Of a stretch of 64,000 nucleotides of DNA, positions 164-8,473 are shown piece by piece (within the stretch, counting starts at the first letter, position 1; the number at the start of each line of letters is the position of its first letter). The position numbers and the translations under genes are program-made. The stretch is taken from contig ONEF01000006.1 of assembly GCA_900316795.1 (NCBI GenBank), positions 62,001 to 126,000 on the forward strand, written 5' to 3'. Under the pieces are notes generated by a model. It was not told where the DNA came from, did not search any database, and worked only from the letters and a program-made list of their open reading frames with translations. This stretch comes from an uncultured Bacteroidales bacterium (lineage in GTDB: Bacteria > Bacteroidota > Bacteroidia > Bacteroidales > UBA932).

Positions 164-2065
164 ATGGAAAAAATGAAAATGCACACTCCGGATATCACCG
201 AGATTAACATTGAGAAAATCGGACAACTTTTTCCGAATTGCCTTACCGAGAGGATTGGCGCGGATGGGAAGGTTGAAAGAGTTATCGATTTTGACATGCT
301 CCGGCAGGAGCTCTCCAAGGAGATCGTGGAAGGGCCGCAGGAGAGGTATCAGTTTACTTGGCCGGATAAGAAGAAGGCCATCCGGCTGGCAAATACCCCG
401 TCCACGATGACACTGCGTCCCTGCCGCGAAGAGAGTGTTGATTTCGATAATACCGAGAATCTCTATATCGAAGGTGACAATCTGGAGGTGCTGAAGCTTC
501 TGCGGGAGGATTATCTTGGGAAGGTGAAGATGATTTATATTGACCCACCGTATAATACTGGGAATGATTTTGTGTATGAGGATGATTTTAGTTTGTCATC
601 TGAAGCATATTCAGAATTATCCGGGCAGAATGACGCAGAAGGTAACAGGATGGTTCTGAATGCAGAAAGCAATGGCCGTTTCCATACAGACTGGCTCAAT
701 ATGATCTATCCTCGGTTGAAGGTTGCTAAAGATTTTTTAAGTGAAGACGGCGTTATTTTTATCAGCATTGACGATCATGAGCAAGAGAATTTGAAGAAGG
801 TCTGTGAAGAGGTTTTCGGGGGAAGAAACTTTATTGCAGAACTCATCTGGCAGAGGGCTTTCTCTCCGAAAAATGATGCGAAGTTTATTTCCAATAGTCA
901 TGACTACATTCTGATGTTCGCGAAAAATATAGAGCGTTTCGTGATTGGAAGATTAGAAAGGACAGAAGAAGCCAACGCTCGTTATTCAAATCCTGATAAT
1001 GATCCACGCGGTGTCTGGATGTCAAGCGATATCTCAGTAAAAACATATAACGCAGAATGCGATTATCCTATAACGACCCCTTCGGGGAAAGTTATAGAGC
1101 CTCCAGCAGGACGCTGCTGGAGTCTCTCGAAAAATGCTTTTTTCGAGAGACTCCAAGATAATAGAATATGGTTTGGACCAAACGGTGATGGAACGCCTCG
1201 TATTAAACGTTTTCTAACCGATCTTAAATTTGATGGGATGGCCCCAACTTCTATTCTTCTGTTCAAAGAAGTTGGACACAGCCAAGAGGGTGCACAAGAA
1301 GTTGTTTCACTCTTCGGCGATAAAGGCGTTTTTGATGGGCCAAAACCTATCCGTTTAATGGAACGTCTCCTAACACTTGCAAATCTGCAAAAGGATTCCA
1401 TTGTGCTCGATTTCTTTTCCGGAAGTGCAACGACAGCCCATGCTGTCATGAAGCGTAATGTAGAGAAGAACTTGAACTGTAAATTTATCCTCGTACAACT
1501 ACCTGAAAAGGTAAGCGAGAAAAAGAAAGACCAAGGCTACAAAACCATCTGCGCCATTGGAAAAGAAAGAATACGAAGGGCAGCAAAGAAATTGCGTAAA
1601 GGGTTGGATAACAAGAATGTAAATGATGGGTTCTTTGCTGCTGGGGATTCAGAAATGAAACATGATTTCGGATTCCGTGTCCTTAAGCTCGATTCAAGTA
1701 ATATGGAAGATGTATATTATCGTCCAGAAGACTCTTCTGAAAGTACTCTTTTTGAAAGCAATGTCAAAGAAGGCCGAACTCCAGAAGATCTTCTTTTCCA
1801 AGTAATGCTGGAATGTAATCTTCCTCTTTCAGCGAAGATTCAAACTGAGAAGATTGCTGGGAAGGAAGTCTTTACAGTCAATAATGGCTATTTGATTGCC
1901 TGTTTCGATGAGGATATCAACGAAGATGTAATCAAGGTTATCGCCAAACGCAAACCGTATTATTTCGTAATGCGTGATAGTTCTCTTGCTTCGGACAATG
2001 TTGCAGACAATTTTGAGCAAATCTTCCAAGCCTATAGCAAAGATACCATAAGAAAAATTTTGTAG
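164..2065 (+). CDS. mod: Type III restriction-modification methyltransferase Mod (copy 1)
   Basis: This is the DNA adenine-N6 methyltransferase subunit that sets the recognition sequence of a type III restriction-modification system. It has 633 residues, normal for Mod. The order of motifs is the beta-class one: catalytic DPPY within DPPYNTGNDF (about residue 127), then a central target-recognition region (roughly 215-410), then the SAM-binding motif FSGSATTAHA (about 420). The C-terminal 190 residues closely match the second Mod downstream, while the central part does not, so the two copies should recognise different sequences. The start ATG 164 is supported by alignment with the start of copy 2 (both begin M-x-K-x-x-M-H-T). 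The central region contains two adjacent inverted repeats (1101-1155). The stop is 2 bases before the next start codon. Confidence 0.93.
   Translation: MEKMKMHTPDITEINIEKIGQLFPNCLTERIGADGKVERVIDFDMLRQELSKEIVEGPQERYQFTWPDKKKAIRLANTPSTMTLRPCREESVDFDNTENLYIEGDNLEVLKLLREDYLGKVKMIYIDPPYNTGNDFVYEDDFSLSSEAYSELSGQNDAEGNRMVLNAESNGRFHTDWLNMIYPRLKVAKDFLSEDGVIFISIDDHEQENLKKVCEEVFGGRNFIAELIWQRAFSPKNDAKFISNSHDYILMFAKNIERFVIGRLERTEEANARYSNPDNDPRGVWMSSDISVKTYNAECDYPITTPSGKVIEPPAGRCWSLSKNAFFERLQDNRIWFGPNGDGTPRIKRFLTDLKFDGMAPTSILLFKEVGHSQEGAQEVVSLFGDKGVFDGPKPIRLMERLLTLANLQKDSIVLDFFSGSATTAHAVMKRNVEKNLNCKFILVQLPEKVSEKKKDQGYKTICAIGKERIRRAAKKLRKGLDNKNVNDGFFAAGDSEMKHDFGFRVLKLDSSNMEDVYYRPEDSSESTLFESNVKEGRTPEDLLFQVMLECNLPLSAKIQTEKIAGKEVFTVNNGYLIACFDEDINEDVIKVIAKRKPYYFVMRDSSLASDNVADNFEQIFQAYSKDTIRKIL
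1101..1155. repeat. Two overlapping inverted repeats inside the Mod 1 recognition region
   Basis: CTCCAGCAG (1101-1109) is the exact reverse complement of CTGCTGGAG (1114-1122). Overlapping it, TGGAGTCTCTCGAAAAA (1118-1134) is the exact reverse complement of 1139-1155, with only 4 bases between the arms. The 17-bp perfect stem lies wholly inside coding sequence, at the conserved GRCWSLSK...FFERL stretch. Three related CTCCA/TGGAG arms lie within 55 bases, so alternative hairpins can form. Confidence 0.85.
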
Positions 2066-2067
2066 TT

Positions 2068-4001
2068 ATGGATAAACTCAATATGCATACAAAAGACTTC
2101 GCTTCAGTTTATGCGGAAAAGCTGGCTCAACTTTTTCCGGAATGTATTACGGAAGTGATTGATAATCAATGGGGGGGGGGGTAAAGAAAGCTATTGATTT
2201 TGAGAGGCTTAAGCAGCTGCTCGCAACCGATGTTGTCGAAGGCCCAACCGAAAGATACCAGTTTACTTGGCCAGATAAGAAGAAAGCAATAAGGATGGCA
2301 AATGCGCCAACAAATATGACGCTACGCCCGTGCAGAGAAGAAAGTGTCAACTTCGATAAAACAGAAAACCTGTATATCGAAGGGGATAACCTTGAAGTAC
2401 TCAAACTTCTGCGAGAGGACTATCTTGGCAAAGTTAAGATGATATATATTGATCCGCCTTATAATACCGGTAACGATTTTGTTTATGAGGATGACTTCTC
2501 ACGGACTTCATCTGACTATGCAAGTAATTCTGGACAAGAAGACGAAGAAGGCAATCGTTTAGTACAGAATACAGAGAGCAATGGTCGGTTTCATACAGAT
2601 TGGCTAAACATGATATTTCCGAGATTAAAAGTAGCCAAAGACTTGTTGGCAGACGATGGAGTTATATTTGTTAGCATAGATGACAATGAAATTGAGAATT
2701 TAAAAAAAGTCTGCAATGAGATATTCGGAGAAAAGAATTTCCTTGCTTGCTTTAAATGGAATCGAGTTGCAAAGGCTCCAAGCCTTTCCGGTATGGTGAG
2801 AACTAAATATGAATATGTCTTGGCATATTTCAAAAGCACCCAGCCTCGACTGTTTGGAAAAGCCTCATACAATACTCAAGGACCACTTTGGCATCTTCCA
2901 AATAAAAGAGCTGAACTTATATTTCCAGCACGGAGTATACGTATCACCCAGTCTTTTGCTGCTGGCGAATATGGCGGGACATATCAAGTTGAGCTTTTAG
3001 ACGATATGATTGAAGAGAGTGGGCTGAATAAGGATGCCGTTCGCATAAGGGCGTGTTCTGCATGGGCGCAGGGTAGAATTAATTCCTACGTATCGTCCGG
3101 AAAGACATTCCAGATAAAAAAGAGCCCCGTTACAATGTATACAGATTTGGATAGCGAAGATAATTTTATTGCGCCTTCAGATCTTATTGATGATAATGAG
3201 TGTGGTGTAAAGCGAAACACTGATGCAAAAGAAGAACTTCGAAAACTTGGAATTCCATTTGATTATGCTAAGCCAATTTCACTTCCAAAATATCTTGCAA
3301 AAACCATTACTTACAATACCAAAGATGCCATAATTCTTGACTTCTTTTCTGGGTCAGGCACGACGGCACAATCGGTGTTCGAGCTCAATGTTGAAGACGA
3401 GGGGAAGCGTAAGTTTATTCTTGTGCAGCTTCCTGAAGAAACAGAGCCTACTACGGAAGCCTTCAAAGCAGGCTACAAAGACATCTGCAAAATCGGCAAA
3501 GAGCGTATCCGCAGGGCCGGAAAGAAGATTCTTGAGGAGCAAACTAAAACCGAATCCGAAGGAGGTCTCTTCGCTCCATCTGAATCCAAGCCCAAAGTAG
3601 ATGTTGGCTTCCGTGTCCTAAAGCTCGACTCCAGTAACATGCAAGATGTCTATTATCGCCCGGAGGAATCCTCCGAAGCAACCCTCTTCGAGGACAACAT
3701 CAAACCAGACCGCACCCCTGAAGACCTGCTCTTCCAAGTGATGCTGGAGTGCAACCTCCCTCTATCCGCCAAGATCGAGAGCAAGAAGATTGAAGGCAAA
3801 GAAGTATTCAGTGTCAATAATGGATATTTGATGGCCTGCTTTGATAGGGAAGTCAACGAGGATCTTATCAAGGAGGTGGCAAAGGCTAAGCCTTATTACT
3901 TTATTCTCCGTGATAGCTCTCTGACTTCAGATAATGTAGCCGACAACTTCGAACAAATTTTTCAAGCTTACAGCAAGGATACAATCCGAAGAATTTTGTA
4001 A
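2068..4001 (+). CDS. mod: Type III methyltransferase Mod (copy 2), candidate phase-variable gene, currently out of frame
   Basis: This is a second Mod subunit with DPPYNTGNDF and FSGSGTTAQS motifs, very similar to copy 1 at both ends but with a different central recognition region. The natural start appears to be ATG 2068: the first 34 codons (MDKLNMHTKDF..., QLFPECITEVID) align with the start of copy 1. That frame then enters an 11-G run (2171-2181) and stops at TAA 2182-2184. The rest of the gene is read one frame away, uninterrupted to 4001, and could start only at the ATG at 2169-2171, whose last base is the first G. A run of 9 or 12 Gs would join both parts. As it stands the gene is off, or makes a product of 610 residues lacking the conserved N-terminus. 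A homopolymer sequencing error is the alternative. Confidence 0.9.
2171..2181. repeat. Poly-G tract (11 G), candidate phase-variation switch
   Basis: Eleven consecutive G residues lie about 100 bases downstream of the mod copy 2 start codon. Counting codons from ATG 2068, 9 or 12 Gs keep the reading frame and 11 Gs bring in TAA immediately after the tract. Homopolymeric or short-repeat tracts inside mod genes are the classic switch of phase-variable type III systems in Haemophilus, Neisseria and Helicobacter. Confidence 0.9.
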
Positions 4002-4011
4002 CTTCGGGGTT

Positions 4012-5436
4012 ATGAAGACGATTGAAGAATATAAGGCGATGCAGGAAGGCCAGACCTTTGAGCGGAAAAGCGCTCGAATAGAACCTAAGGCACTGGCCGT
4101 TATTATGGTTGCCATGGCTAATGCCGATGGCGGAACGATTGCTGTCGGCATTGAGGATGATGGTACGATAAGCGGCATTGACGGAATGGCCGAGCACATC
4201 AACGACTTGCTGCGTGTGCCGTTCGACTATTGCATCCCTTCTGTCAATGTCCATCCTCAACGGATTCCTTGCATCGATAAGGACGGAAAGAATAACCATA
4301 TCCTTGTTTTAGATGTGGAACAGAGTAGCTCGATTCACGCGACGTCTTCCGATGAGGCTTATTATCGAGTCGGTGACAAATCCAAGAGACTCTCTTTTGA
4401 CGACCGTATGCAGATTATGTTGGCAAAAGGAGTGCAGTACTATGAGGATTATCCTGTTGTAAGGGCTACGGTTGAAGATTTGGATTTGGACTTTGTTTCA
4501 AAATATTGCGAAAGAATTGGTTACAAGAAAGATGCGCTGACTTTTCTTCGTACCAATGGTGATTATATCCTTACCAAAGATGACAAGGAACTGATTAGCG
4601 GTGCAGCCATTCTGTTGTTTGGGAAAGATCCGCAGCGCTTCTTCCAGCGGGCCTATATTCGTTTTATCCGATATGAAGGAACAGAGGAGAAGGTAGGCCG
4701 GGAAATGAATGTCATTAAGGACATTACTTTCAAGGGGCGAATTTTGGATATGACTCAATCCGCAATCTCTTTTGTTAAGACTCAACTCAAAGAAAGGACT
4801 TATCTCGGGCCAGATGCGCTCTTTGTTACTGAGCCTGAATATCCAGAATTCAGCTGGACAGAACTTATCGTCAATGCGGTTGCCCATCGAGACTATTCCA
4901 TTCTCGGTACTGATATACAAATTAAGTTGTTCGATGACCACTATACGGTGGAGAGCCCAGGTATTCTTCCTGGTAGGGTGAGGCTTAATAATATGCGGAC
5001 TACTCACTTCTCACGCAATCCCAAGATTGCAGCTTTTATGAAAGAATACGAGTTTATCCGAGAGTTTGGTGAGGGCGTTGACCGAATGTACCGTGAGTTG
5101 GAGGAAGGAGGCTGGCCGAAGCCTATTTTCAAGCAAGATGACTTTATGCTTCGTGCAAGGCTTTCATCGCGATTTACACTAAAAACTTCACCAGAAACTT
5201 CACCAGAAACTTCACCAGAAATGCCAGTAATGGATTTGTCTGAGCGCGAATATTCCATTCTTGCTCTCATAAGAAAACAGAGAAATATCACCACGCAAAA
5301 AATGGCGGATAAACTGGGGATAAGTAAAAGAGCAGTTATCCCGTATCTGAAATCATTGCAGGAAAAGAAAATAATCTTTCGTGAAGGACCCAAAAAAGGT
5401 GGATGGTGGACTATTTTGGTAGATAAAGCTGAATAA
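4012..5436 (+). CDS. AlbA_2 (Schlafen-type) putative DNA-binding / HATPase / winged-helix protein
   Basis: A protein of 474 residues belonging to the AlbA_2-containing 'ATP-binding protein' family. The N-terminus shows the AlbA_2 pattern (FERKSARIE near residue 18, then ANADGGTIAVGIEDDGTISGI). A HATPase_c_4-like part follows (ELIVNAVAHRDY near 284, FGEGVDRMYRELEEGG near 348). The C-terminal 70 residues look like a helix-turn-helix (TTQKMADKLGISKRAVIPYL). A TSPE repeat linker (DNA 5185-5220) joins the last two parts. It lies between mod and res on the same strand, 10 bases after mod 2 and 4 bases before res, so it is probably co-transcribed and may regulate or assist the restriction system. 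That role is inference from context. Family members are often described only as putative transcriptional regulators. Confidence 0.85.
   Translation: MKTIEEYKAMQEGQTFERKSARIEPKALAVIMVAMANADGGTIAVGIEDDGTISGIDGMAEHINDLLRVPFDYCIPSVNVHPQRIPCIDKDGKNNHILVLDVEQSSSIHATSSDEAYYRVGDKSKRLSFDDRMQIMLAKGVQYYEDYPVVRATVEDLDLDFVSKYCERIGYKKDALTFLRTNGDYILTKDDKELISGAAILLFGKDPQRFFQRAYIRFIRYEGTEEKVGREMNVIKDITFKGRILDMTQSAISFVKTQLKERTYLGPDALFVTEPEYPEFSWTELIVNAVAHRDYSILGTDIQIKLFDDHYTVESPGILPGRVRLNNMRTTHFSRNPKIAAFMKEYEFIREFGEGVDRMYRELEEGGWPKPIFKQDDFMLRARLSSRFTLKTSPETSPETSPEMPVMDLSEREYSILALIRKQRNITTQKMADKLGISKRAVIPYLKSLQEKKIIFREGPKKGGWWTILVDKAE
5185..5220 (+). repeat. Three perfect 12-bp tandem repeats coding for TSPE units
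   Basis: The unit ACTTCACCAGAA is repeated three times exactly, encoding a T-S-P-E linker between the ATPase-like part and the helix-turn-helix of the AlbA_2 protein. The unit is a multiple of three, so copy-number change alters linker length without breaking the frame. Confidence 0.9.
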
Positions 5437-5440
5437 CCGT

Positions 5441-8400
5441 ATGAACTTCAAGTTTAAGATACAACAATATCAGACCGATGCGGTAGAAAATACCGTCACG
5501 GTTTTTGCAGGACAGCCGTCTCGTGAATCATTCCAATATAGGCGAGATATCGGTATGACACTAGGCGTTGGAGAAGACTTTGCCGGATATCGCAATAGCG
5601 ATATAGAGCTGTCCGATTCCCAGCTTTTGGATAACATTCAGAAGATTCAGGATTCTCAGGATATCAAGCAATCTGCGAAGCTCGTCAGCGATCTTGGTAA
5701 ATTGGGCCTCGACATCGAAATGGAGACAGGTACCGGGAAGACCTACGTCTATATCAAGACCATGTTCGAGCTCAACAAGCGCTATGGCTGGAACAAATAT
5801 ATCGTCGTTGTTCCATCCATTGCCATCCGCGAAGGCGTGAACAAGAGCTTCAACATGCTTGAAGACCACTTCATGGAGCACTACGGCAAGAAGGCCAGAT
5901 TCTTCATCTATAACTCATCCAATCTCCAACTCCTGGACTCTTTTTCCAGTGACGCCGGCATCAATGTAATGATTATCAACACCCAGGCATTTGCTACAGA
6001 TATGAAGGAAGGTGGCAGCCGTGGGGCTAGCCGTATCATCTATTCCGAGCGTGATGACTTTAGGAGTCGCAAGCCCATAGATGTGATAGCTGCTAATCGT
6101 CCGATTATCATCATGGATGAGCCGCAGAAAATGGAAGGTCAGGCAACCCAGACTGCACTCAAACGATTTAAGCCGTTGTTTGTCCTTTACTATTCTGCAA
6201 CGCATAAGACTCAGCATAACTGCGTCTATGCATTGGATGCACTGGATGCTTATAAGCAGAAACTTGTCAAGAAGATCCAGGTAAAGGGATTTGAAGTCAA
6301 GAATCTCAAGGGAACAAGTTCATACCTGTATCTGGATGATATCCTCCTTTCTAAGAATCAGCCTCCAATGGTGCGTCTGGAGATGGAGATAGAGACTGGT
6401 TCCGGAGTCAAGAAGGTGATGAAGAAGCTGGGCCAGGGAGATAGCTTGTATAGCGAATCAGGCCTTCTAGAGTATAAGGATTTCACAATCTCCGACATCG
6501 ATGCCTTCCGGAATACCGTCACATTCCTTAATGGCGTTAAGATAGCCAAAGGTGAGGTATATGGCGACAGTAGTGAGGAGGCCATGCAGCGGGTCCAGAT
6601 TAGAGAGACGATTGCATCCCACTTCGAAAAAGAGCGTGATCTCTTCAAGCGGGGAATCAAGACCCTTTCCCTCTTCTTCATTGATGAGGTGGCTCATTAC
6701 AAGAGTTATGATTCCGAAGGAAACGAGGTCCATGGCCCCTTCTGGAAAATCTTCGAGGAAGAATATACTCGTATTCTAAATGAGAATATATCCCTGTTTG
6801 AGGATGATTACCAGGCGTATCTTCGTCGATTCGATGCATCTCAGGTTCACAACGGCTATTTCTCAATTGATAAGAAGGGTCGTATGGTGAACAGTGAGAT
6901 TAAGAGAGGAAGTGATATTTCTGATGATATCTCTGCCTATGACCTGATTCTTAAGAACAAAGAGCGCTTGCTGAGTTTTGATGAGCCGACTCGATTCATC
7001 TTCTCACATTCGGCTCTACGGGAAGGCTGGGACAATCCGAATGTATTCCAGATCTGTACACTCCGGCATGCAGCTTCCGCTATTGCCAAGAGGCAGGAGG
7101 TCGGCCGAGGACTCCGCATTTGTGTCGATCAGAACGGAACCAGAATGGATCTTGAAGAACTGGGCGAAGAGCAAGTGCAGGACATCAATAAACTGACTGT
7201 TATCGCCAACGAGAGCTACAAGTCATTCGTTGATGACCTCCAGAAGGAAACCCGTGATGCGCTCCGTGAGCGTCCCACAAAGGCTACTCCAGACTTCTTC
7301 GAAGGAAAGAAGGTCAAATCCGAAAACACCCCGGAGCTTCCGTATATTATCAGCCCTCAGGATGCTCAGGCTATAGCTGGATACCTTATCGGATTCAATT
7401 ACGTTGATAAGGATTACAAGGTCACAGAAACATACAAGAAAGATCTGGAGGCAGGTACTCTCCAGCCTGTCTTCCCTGGTCTTAAGCACATTGAAGGCGA
7501 GATCCATAAACTCGTACAGGCAACCTTCGATGAGAGCATCACTCTGGACAGCATGATTGAGAACGGCAATGCCTCAGCTGAAGCAACAAACCGTCTCAAC
7601 GAGAATTTTTCCAGAAAAGAATTCCAGGCCCTGTGGAAAGAAATTAATCACAAATATGTCTATACAGTCCATTATGATAGCAAAGAACTCATAGAAAAGG
7701 CTATTACAGCTATTGACAGGAATCTGACCGTCACAGAACTGAAGTACGTTATGACCGTTGGTGACCAGGATTCTGTAGATACTTTCGGAGACACGAAGAC
7801 TTCTACCAAGACCCTCGGAACGGTCAGTACCTCTACTGTAAAATATGACCTCGTAGGTGAAGTTGCCAAACGCACGACATTGACCAGAAAAACTGTTACA
7901 ACCATCCTGAAAAGCATCAAACCAACGCGGCTTGCCATGTTCCGTAATAATCCGGAAGAGTTCATAAAAAACGTAAGCCGGATTATCAAGGATGAGAAAG
8001 CGACGATGATTGTGGAGCATATAGAGTATGACAAGATCGATCAGATTTACGATAGCGAAATCTTCACCCAGGAGAAGCACTCTCAGAATGTCACTAAGGC
8101 GTATTCGTCTAAGAAAAGCATTATGGATTACGTGTTCACAGACTCTGATGGTGAGCGCGCTTTCGCAGCGGATCTTGATGCAGCTACGGAGGTCTGTGTG
8201 TATGCTAAACTCCCTCGTTCTTTCCAGATACCTACACCTGTTGGGAATTATGCTCCAGACTGGGCAATCGCTTTCAACAAGGGCACCGTCAAGCACATCT
8301 TCTTCATTGCCGAGACAAAGGGCTCTATGGATTCCATGCAGCTCAAGGAAATTGAAAAAGCCAAGATTGGATGTGCCGAAAAGCTTTTCAATAATATCTC

Positions 8401-8473
8401 TTCATCCCATGTACGATACCGCATGGTAAAGAGCTACCAGAACCTTCTGGATATCATGAAATCAATAGATTAA
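5441..8473 (+). CDS. res: Type III restriction enzyme Res subunit (helicase-nuclease)
   Basis: This is the ATP-dependent restriction subunit that works with Mod to translocate or slide on DNA and cleave unmethylated sites. It is complete at 1010 residues. Superfamily 2 helicase motifs are visible: Walker A ETGTGKT (about residues 95-101), DEPQ in place of DEAD (226-229), YSATHKT (about 252), and motif VI QEVGRGLRI (about 558). The C-terminus carries a PD-(D/E)xK nuclease signature: APDWAIAF followed by AETKG (about 935-960). It starts 4 bases after the AlbA_2 gene stops, so mod1-mod2-albA_2-res read as one operon. Only one Res is present for two Mods. Confidence 0.95.
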   Translation: MNFKFKIQQYQTDAVENTVTVFAGQPSRESFQYRRDIGMTLGVGEDFAGYRNSDIELSDSQLLDNIQKIQDSQDIKQSAKLVSDLGKLGLDIEMETGTGKTYVYIKTMFELNKRYGWNKYIVVVPSIAIREGVNKSFNMLEDHFMEHYGKKARFFIYNSSNLQLLDSFSSDAGINVMIINTQAFATDMKEGGSRGASRIIYSERDDFRSRKPIDVIAANRPIIIMDEPQKMEGQATQTALKRFKPLFVLYYSATHKTQHNCVYALDALDAYKQKLVKKIQVKGFEVKNLKGTSSYLYLDDILLSKNQPPMVRLEMEIETGSGVKKVMKKLGQGDSLYSESGLLEYKDFTISDIDAFRNTVTFLNGVKIAKGEVYGDSSEEAMQRVQIRETIASHFEKERDLFKRGIKTLSLFFIDEVAHYKSYDSEGNEVHGPFWKIFEEEYTRILNENISLFEDDYQAYLRRFDASQVHNGYFSIDKKGRMVNSEIKRGSDISDDISAYDLILKNKERLLSFDEPTRFIFSHSALREGWDNPNVFQICTLRHAASAIAKRQEVGRGLRICVDQNGTRMDLEELGEEQVQDINKLTVIANESYKSFVDDLQKETRDALRERPTKATPDFFEGKKVKSENTPELPYIISPQDAQAIAGYLIGFNYVDKDYKVTETYKKDLEAGTLQPVFPGLKHIEGEIHKLVQATFDESITLDSMIENGNASAEATNRLNENFSRKEFQALWKEINHKYVYTVHYDSKELIEKAITAIDRNLTVTELKYVMTVGDQDSVDTFGDTKTSTKTLGTVSTSTVKYDLVGEVAKRTTLTRKTVTTILKSIKPTRLAMFRNNPEEFIKNVSRIIKDEKATMIVEHIEYDKIDQIYDSEIFTQEKHSQNVTKAYSSKKSIMDYVFTDSDGERAFAADLDAATEVCVYAKLPRSFQIPTPVGNYAPDWAIAFNKGTVKHIFFIAETKGSMDSMQLKEIEKAKIGCAEKLFNNISSSHVRYRMVKSYQNLLDIMKSID

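Follow-up and report, generated by a model that had tools for sequence, protein, structure and literature searches.

Phasevarions controlled by modA, modB, modD and modM mostly use tetra- or pentanucleotide repeats. These type III methyltransferase genes of Haemophilus, Neisseria and Moraxella are switched by simple repeats lying in their coding sequence (PMC2667262, PMC4525171), and simple repeats occur in about 17.4% of the type III mod genes in REBASE, a figure of Atack 2018 as quoted in PMC7394358. In Helicobacter pylori, modH contains a poly-G tract of G10-G14, and mixed populations have been observed (PMC5700931). A limited literature search returned no report of such a switch in Bacteroidales.

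The locus analyzed here lies in a 64-kb stretch of DNA (the window) from an uncultured bacterium and contains two type III mod genes in tandem, the second of which (mod2) carries a run of 11 Gs near its start. Like modH of H. pylori, mod2 is a type III mod gene whose coding sequence contains a poly-G tract, the two tracts being similar in length, and the frame would decide between a full and a truncated Mod. The modH tract is placed 104 bp downstream of the recognition region whereas that of mod2 is at codon ~35, in a predicted N-terminal hairpin turn; moreover, mod2 is the second of a tandem mod pair and belongs to another phylum. With modA, modB, modD and modM it would share the switching of a type III mod by a simple repeat in the coding sequence, but its repeat is a mononucleotide G run.

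Organization of the operon and position of the G tract

The locus comprised the following features (window coordinates):

164..2065, + strand: mod1, type III N6-adenine methyltransferase of 633 aa, intact and without tract (PF01555; PADLOC MTase_III, 1e-228; best fold match EcoP15I Mod, 4zcf)
2068..2184, + strand: 5' leader frame of mod2, from ATG 2068 to TAA 2182-2184, encoding the conserved N-terminal helix and the first hairpin strand
2169..2171, + strand: ATG over the first G of the tract, candidate alternative start, in frame with the body only at tract lengths of 3n + 2 bases
2169..4001, + strand: mod2 body, a 610-aa ORF from ATG 2169 at 11 Gs; full Mod of 643-644 aa at 9 or 12 Gs (ORF, Pfam, PADLOC)
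2171..2181, + strand: G11 tract, proposed slippage site; in-frame lengths 3, 6, 9, 12 and 15
4012..5436, + strand: Schlafen AlbA_2 / RecG-C-like (HATPase_c_4) protein with winged helix, between mod2 and res
5441..8473, + strand: res, type III restriction subunit of 1010 aa, intact, with ResIII helicase and RE_endonuc (PADLOC REase_III, 5.7e-294)

The tandem genes mod1 (164-2065) and mod2 (2068-4001) were thus followed by the Schlafen AlbA_2 gene and by res. Both subunits of a type III system were recognized: a beta-class N6-adenine methylase with DPPY and FxGxx motifs and a central recognition region for Mod, and an SF2 helicase with a nuclease domain, adjoining mod, for Res. The best fold matches of the Mod1 model were EcoP15I Mod 4zcf (E 5.5e-41), Mod 6k0w and Mbo45V 7dsu. 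Mod1 and Mod2 were 58% identical overall, with the N-terminal methylase part and the C-terminus aligning closely. The type III mod and the tandem duplication proposed by the first-pass annotation were both supported. The central recognition regions hardly aligned, so that, judged from their sequences, Mod1 and Mod2 should be specific for different DNA sites.

The region upstream of the window (L120:4527-10158) encoded, 5' of the mod genes and on the same strand, a helicase of the HKD+Snf2 type (PADLOC candidate C3a139), a protein with DUF4391 and a 593-aa protein that matched no Pfam family. Similar helicase and DUF4391-like genes were also located 5' of mod in three relatives (L110, L111 and L196), suggesting that they belong to an extended type III system. 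The window genome belongs to the same family as G347 (a MAG, uncultured Bacteroidia bacterium RUG12619; locus L021), whose res was 93% identical to that of the window. In another related operon (L023:5884-12045), Mod1 was 80% identical and mod2 was replaced by genes for a 308-aa protein and a TPR-like protein, with the Schlafen-like gene and res following them, an arrangement that points to an exchangeable slot between mod1 and the Schlafen gene.

The leader frame of mod2 began at ATG 2068, 2 nt after the mod1 stop, and comprised 38 codons (MDKLNMHTKDFASVYAEKLAQLFPECITEVIDNQWGGG), ending in ...EVIDNQWGGG immediately before TAA 2182-2184. In homologues from many phyla, the IDF motif is preceded by 35-40 residues, which start with the conserved segment MDKLKMxT...NxxKIxxLFPNxxTE. 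The first ~34 aa from ATG 2068 were conserved in about 80 homologues; P24 was invariant, and M6, N15, F23, T28 and E29 were present at >=90% (73 homologues). The mod2 leader carried this type of segment upstream of the tract. On the evidence of the conserved N-terminus and the 2-nt spacing, ATG 2068 is the natural start of mod2, as had been claimed, and the tract interrupts a real gene.

The earlier statements that the 11-G run (2171-2181) is directly followed by TAA 2182-2184, and that 9 or 12 Gs restore the frame, held when the tract length was varied in silico: 9 Gs gave a type III Mod of 643 aa and 12 Gs one of 644 aa. Lengths of 3, 6 and 15 Gs likewise joined the leader to the mod2 body, and 10 or 11 Gs failed to do so. 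The coding sequence of mod2 therefore contains a simple repeat with a unit length not divisible by three; the number of units determines the reading frame, and a change in that number restores the downstream ORF, which is intact. No other G or C run >5 was present within the window. Runs of at least nine Gs occurred at four places in the whole 2.32-Mb assembly, that in mod2 being the longest. Since about one G run >=11 is expected at genome size under a first-order Markov model, the length of G11 alone is weak evidence, and its position and recurrence carry the weight.

As to position, an AlphaFold model was made of Mod1 (mean pLDDT 82.5, about 72-80 in the N-terminal part) and the tract was placed on it by the Mod1/Mod2 alignment. 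The model presented a helix at residues 11-22 and strands at 27-31 and 37-41 separated by a turn at 32-36. The tract (codons 35-38 of mod2) aligned with this turn of the predicted N-terminal beta-hairpin, which reads GADGK in Mod1. In such a turn, one glycine more or fewer would likely be tolerated and harmless, which fits a site alternating between in-frame lengths.

Recurrence of tracts among related mod genes

Relative loci were gathered by conserved peptides of the gene body, independently of the tract, giving about 80 mod genes from independent genomes (941 kb). In three of them, a stretch of nine or ten Gs or Cs occurred in the short segment after the N-terminal module and before YQFTWP: a Duncaniella MAG (L073; G10, out of frame), a Bacteroides sp. 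MAG (L076; C9, in frame) and the named type strain of Peptoniphilus senegalensis (L060), whose out-of-frame G10 lies some 20 codons farther downstream. With G283, from another genus of the window's family, where the second copy of a tandem mod pair contained an in-frame G8, tracts of 8-10 G/C were found in the Mod segment of four other species, being in frame in two of them and out of frame in the other two. Half (3/6) of the G/C runs >=8 in the 941 kb were located in a ~110-bp segment representing about 0.9% of the bases (P about 1.5e-5, a value resting on segment bounds that were chosen after the tracts were known). Tract lengths and frame states differed between species, the species of the window being represented by one assembly.

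The G283 locus (L018/L121) was organized as in the window, with mod1 lacking a tract, mod2 carrying a poly-G at the same N-terminal position, and res thereafter. It differed in the G8 being in frame and in the proteins being only 43-46% identical to those of the window, and no Schlafen-AlbA gene was found between mod2 and res. The DNA around the tract was common to both (GGAAGTG..TGATAATCA), the flanks being GGAAGTGGCTGATAATCA-G8 in G283 vs. GGAAGTGATTGATAATCAAT-G11 in the window, and this likeness suggests common descent of the two tracts.

About 45 further Bacteroidota mod genes were without tract apart from the window locus and G283, thus reflecting a minority, though recurrent, trait. The remark that Bacteroidota more often use inversions fits the examples in a review (PMC11868660); nevertheless, the presence of tracts in G283 and in the Duncaniella and Bacteroides sp. 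MAGs indicated that the Bacteroidota genome of the window is not alone. When 393 genomes of the order were searched for the pattern of a G/C8 upstream of YQFTWP, the window locus was the single match, and in the genus Peptoniphilus it was the already known genome (L060). The same pattern gave no match in 198 genomes of the family of the Duncaniella MAG; it also misses the known tract of L073 itself (the gap is just above the limit of 80), so that this null result is no negative evidence. Nine mod relatives on viral contigs had no tract.

Several further candidates were discarded: a G8 in L099, which sits between mod and res and outside the coding frame; L068, which was unrelated; and frame breaks in L021, L074, L087 and L196, where there was no G/C homopolymer. 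The breaks in L021 (TGA at L021:6151) and L074 (TAA at L074:3730) were single in-frame stops near the start of otherwise intact mod genes. A Treponema mod (L046:1320-1328) contained an in-frame G9 in its C-terminal linker, nearer to the position of the H. pylori modH tract, and it is probably phase-variable with the tract placed elsewhere. In three IMG/VR contigs (L110:3274-3318, L111:3274-3342 and L112:3290-3310), a related mod was cut at or beside the D of the catalytic DPPY, with foreign DNA beyond; a large serine recombinase was encoded near the break in L110 and a recombinase zinc-ribbon piece in L111. Integrative elements may use the DPPY codons as an attachment site.

Proposed switch and competing explanations

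The tract position, its location in a turn, its recurrence and the enrichment, taken together, make slipped-strand phase variation of mod2 at G11, with the assembled 11-G form out of frame, the best reading, and one in which we have good confidence. Slipped-strand mispairing at G11 (codons 35-38 of mod2) would add one base or a few to the tract or remove them from it, bringing the mod2 body into or out of frame with ATG 2068. With 9 or 12 Gs, the tract would be translated as two or three glycines in the hairpin turn and full Mod2 would be made, whereas in the 11-G form Mod2 would be absent or shortened. Type III Res acts through Mod. As the operon has a single intact Res and Mod1 would remain constant, the cell would move between one specificity (Mod1) and two (Mod1 and Mod2), methylation and restriction gaining or losing the Mod2 specificity together. 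Mixed populations would be expected, with possible effects on phage defence or gene expression. In addition, an out-of-frame mod2 would leave 1.8 kb of untranslated message before the Schlafen-like gene and res, and polarity on res would be possible.

What is produced at 11 Gs may depend on a second ATG. The sequence CAATGGGG (cAATGGGG...) places ATG 2169 over the first G, and with 11 Gs this codon is in frame with the body, giving a 610-aa Mod that lacks the N-terminal module and keeps the recognition region together with every methylase motif. With 9 or 12 Gs, ATG 2169 and the body are in different frames, and with 10 Gs translation from this ATG would end after MGGG. The switch might accordingly have three states: full Mod2 at remainder 0 (9, 12), N-truncated 610-aa Mod2 from ATG 2169 at remainder 2 (8, 11), and none at remainder 1 (10, 13). 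The assembled state would then correspond to an altered or weakly expressed Mod2 rather than to an off state. Re-initiation is conceivable, the TAA of the leader lying 13 nt downstream of ATG 2169, and the G tract of NgoAV hsdS, whose length yields full-length or truncated HsdS of different specificity, provides a precedent (PMC7394358), which serves as a parallel for this reading only and, unlike mod2, concerns a type I specificity subunit. On the other hand, the part that would be lost (~34 aa conserved in the family, including the invariant P24) comprises a helix and one strand of the predicted hairpin; G283 has no such restart ATG, and the tract-adjacent ATG of L073 is in frame with the leader and is not an independent start. 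For these reasons we consider three states unlikely, although not negligibly so. If they existed, tract length would govern how many specificities the system has, and perhaps which ones, with a constant Mod1 using the same Res; the tract in the second copy would have been retained across genera.

Phase variation between in-frame and out-of-frame lengths has also to be weighed against an assembly or sequencing error, for which G11 is a plausible place: the true length would be 9 or 12 in all cells, and mod2 would always be on. Homopolymers of 11 bases are error-prone and the genome is a draft of 27 contigs with 92.75% completeness. The window was otherwise frame-clean, with 94.5% of it in ORFs of about >=100 codons, which, together with the absence of other lesions in mod2 and the third-position bias described below, argues against an indel-rich assembly; a single error at G11 in spite of this is improbable but conceivable. 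Two unrelated assemblies, that of the named type strain (L060) among them, independently showed an out-of-frame G10 in this segment, and the occurrence of tracts there in both frame states makes a switch much likelier than an error. Even if in frame, the tract would stay a slippage site.

Transcriptional slippage or ribosomal frameshifting on the G run might instead provide some full-length Mod2 from the 11-G gene with its DNA unchanged; long homopolymers can cause such slippage, but the examples are mostly on A or T runs (PMC3711429), and we regard this as quite improbable. Least credible of all was a decaying mod2 with a fixed frameshift since, although mod2 is the second copy of a duplication and single stops or frameshifts exist in a few other mods (TGA in L021, TAA in L074, the second copy in L087, and L196), its 1.8 kb bore no other lesion, its differences from relatives fell mostly at third codon positions as in mod1 (a comparison used in place of dN/dS, dS being saturated), and the break coincides with the window's sole long G run, within the segment that carries tracts in relatives.

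Regarding the claim that mod2 is switched on and off, phase variation by tract length was made likely by the out-of-frame tract, the intact body and the recurrence; the assignment of 11 Gs to an off state is less sure, ATG 2169 having been overlooked. The mod2 switch is probably real and functional as far as can be judged from sequence, and of a kind already known from other bacteria, on which it is a variation in its N-terminal position, in the location of the tract in the second gene of a tandem pair and in its Bacteroidales-type host.

Pathogens of other phyla provide the best-known cases of poly-G switching in type III methylases, whereas the host here belongs to uncultured gut or rumen bacteria of Bacteroidales type, in which phase variation has been studied mainly as DNA inversion. 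The tract recurs in one short N-terminal segment of Mod in Bacteroidota and in a Firmicute, twice in the second copy of a tandem pair. If the switch is real, restriction specificity and methylomes would flicker in such communities, at a site that can be counted in existing metagenome reads.
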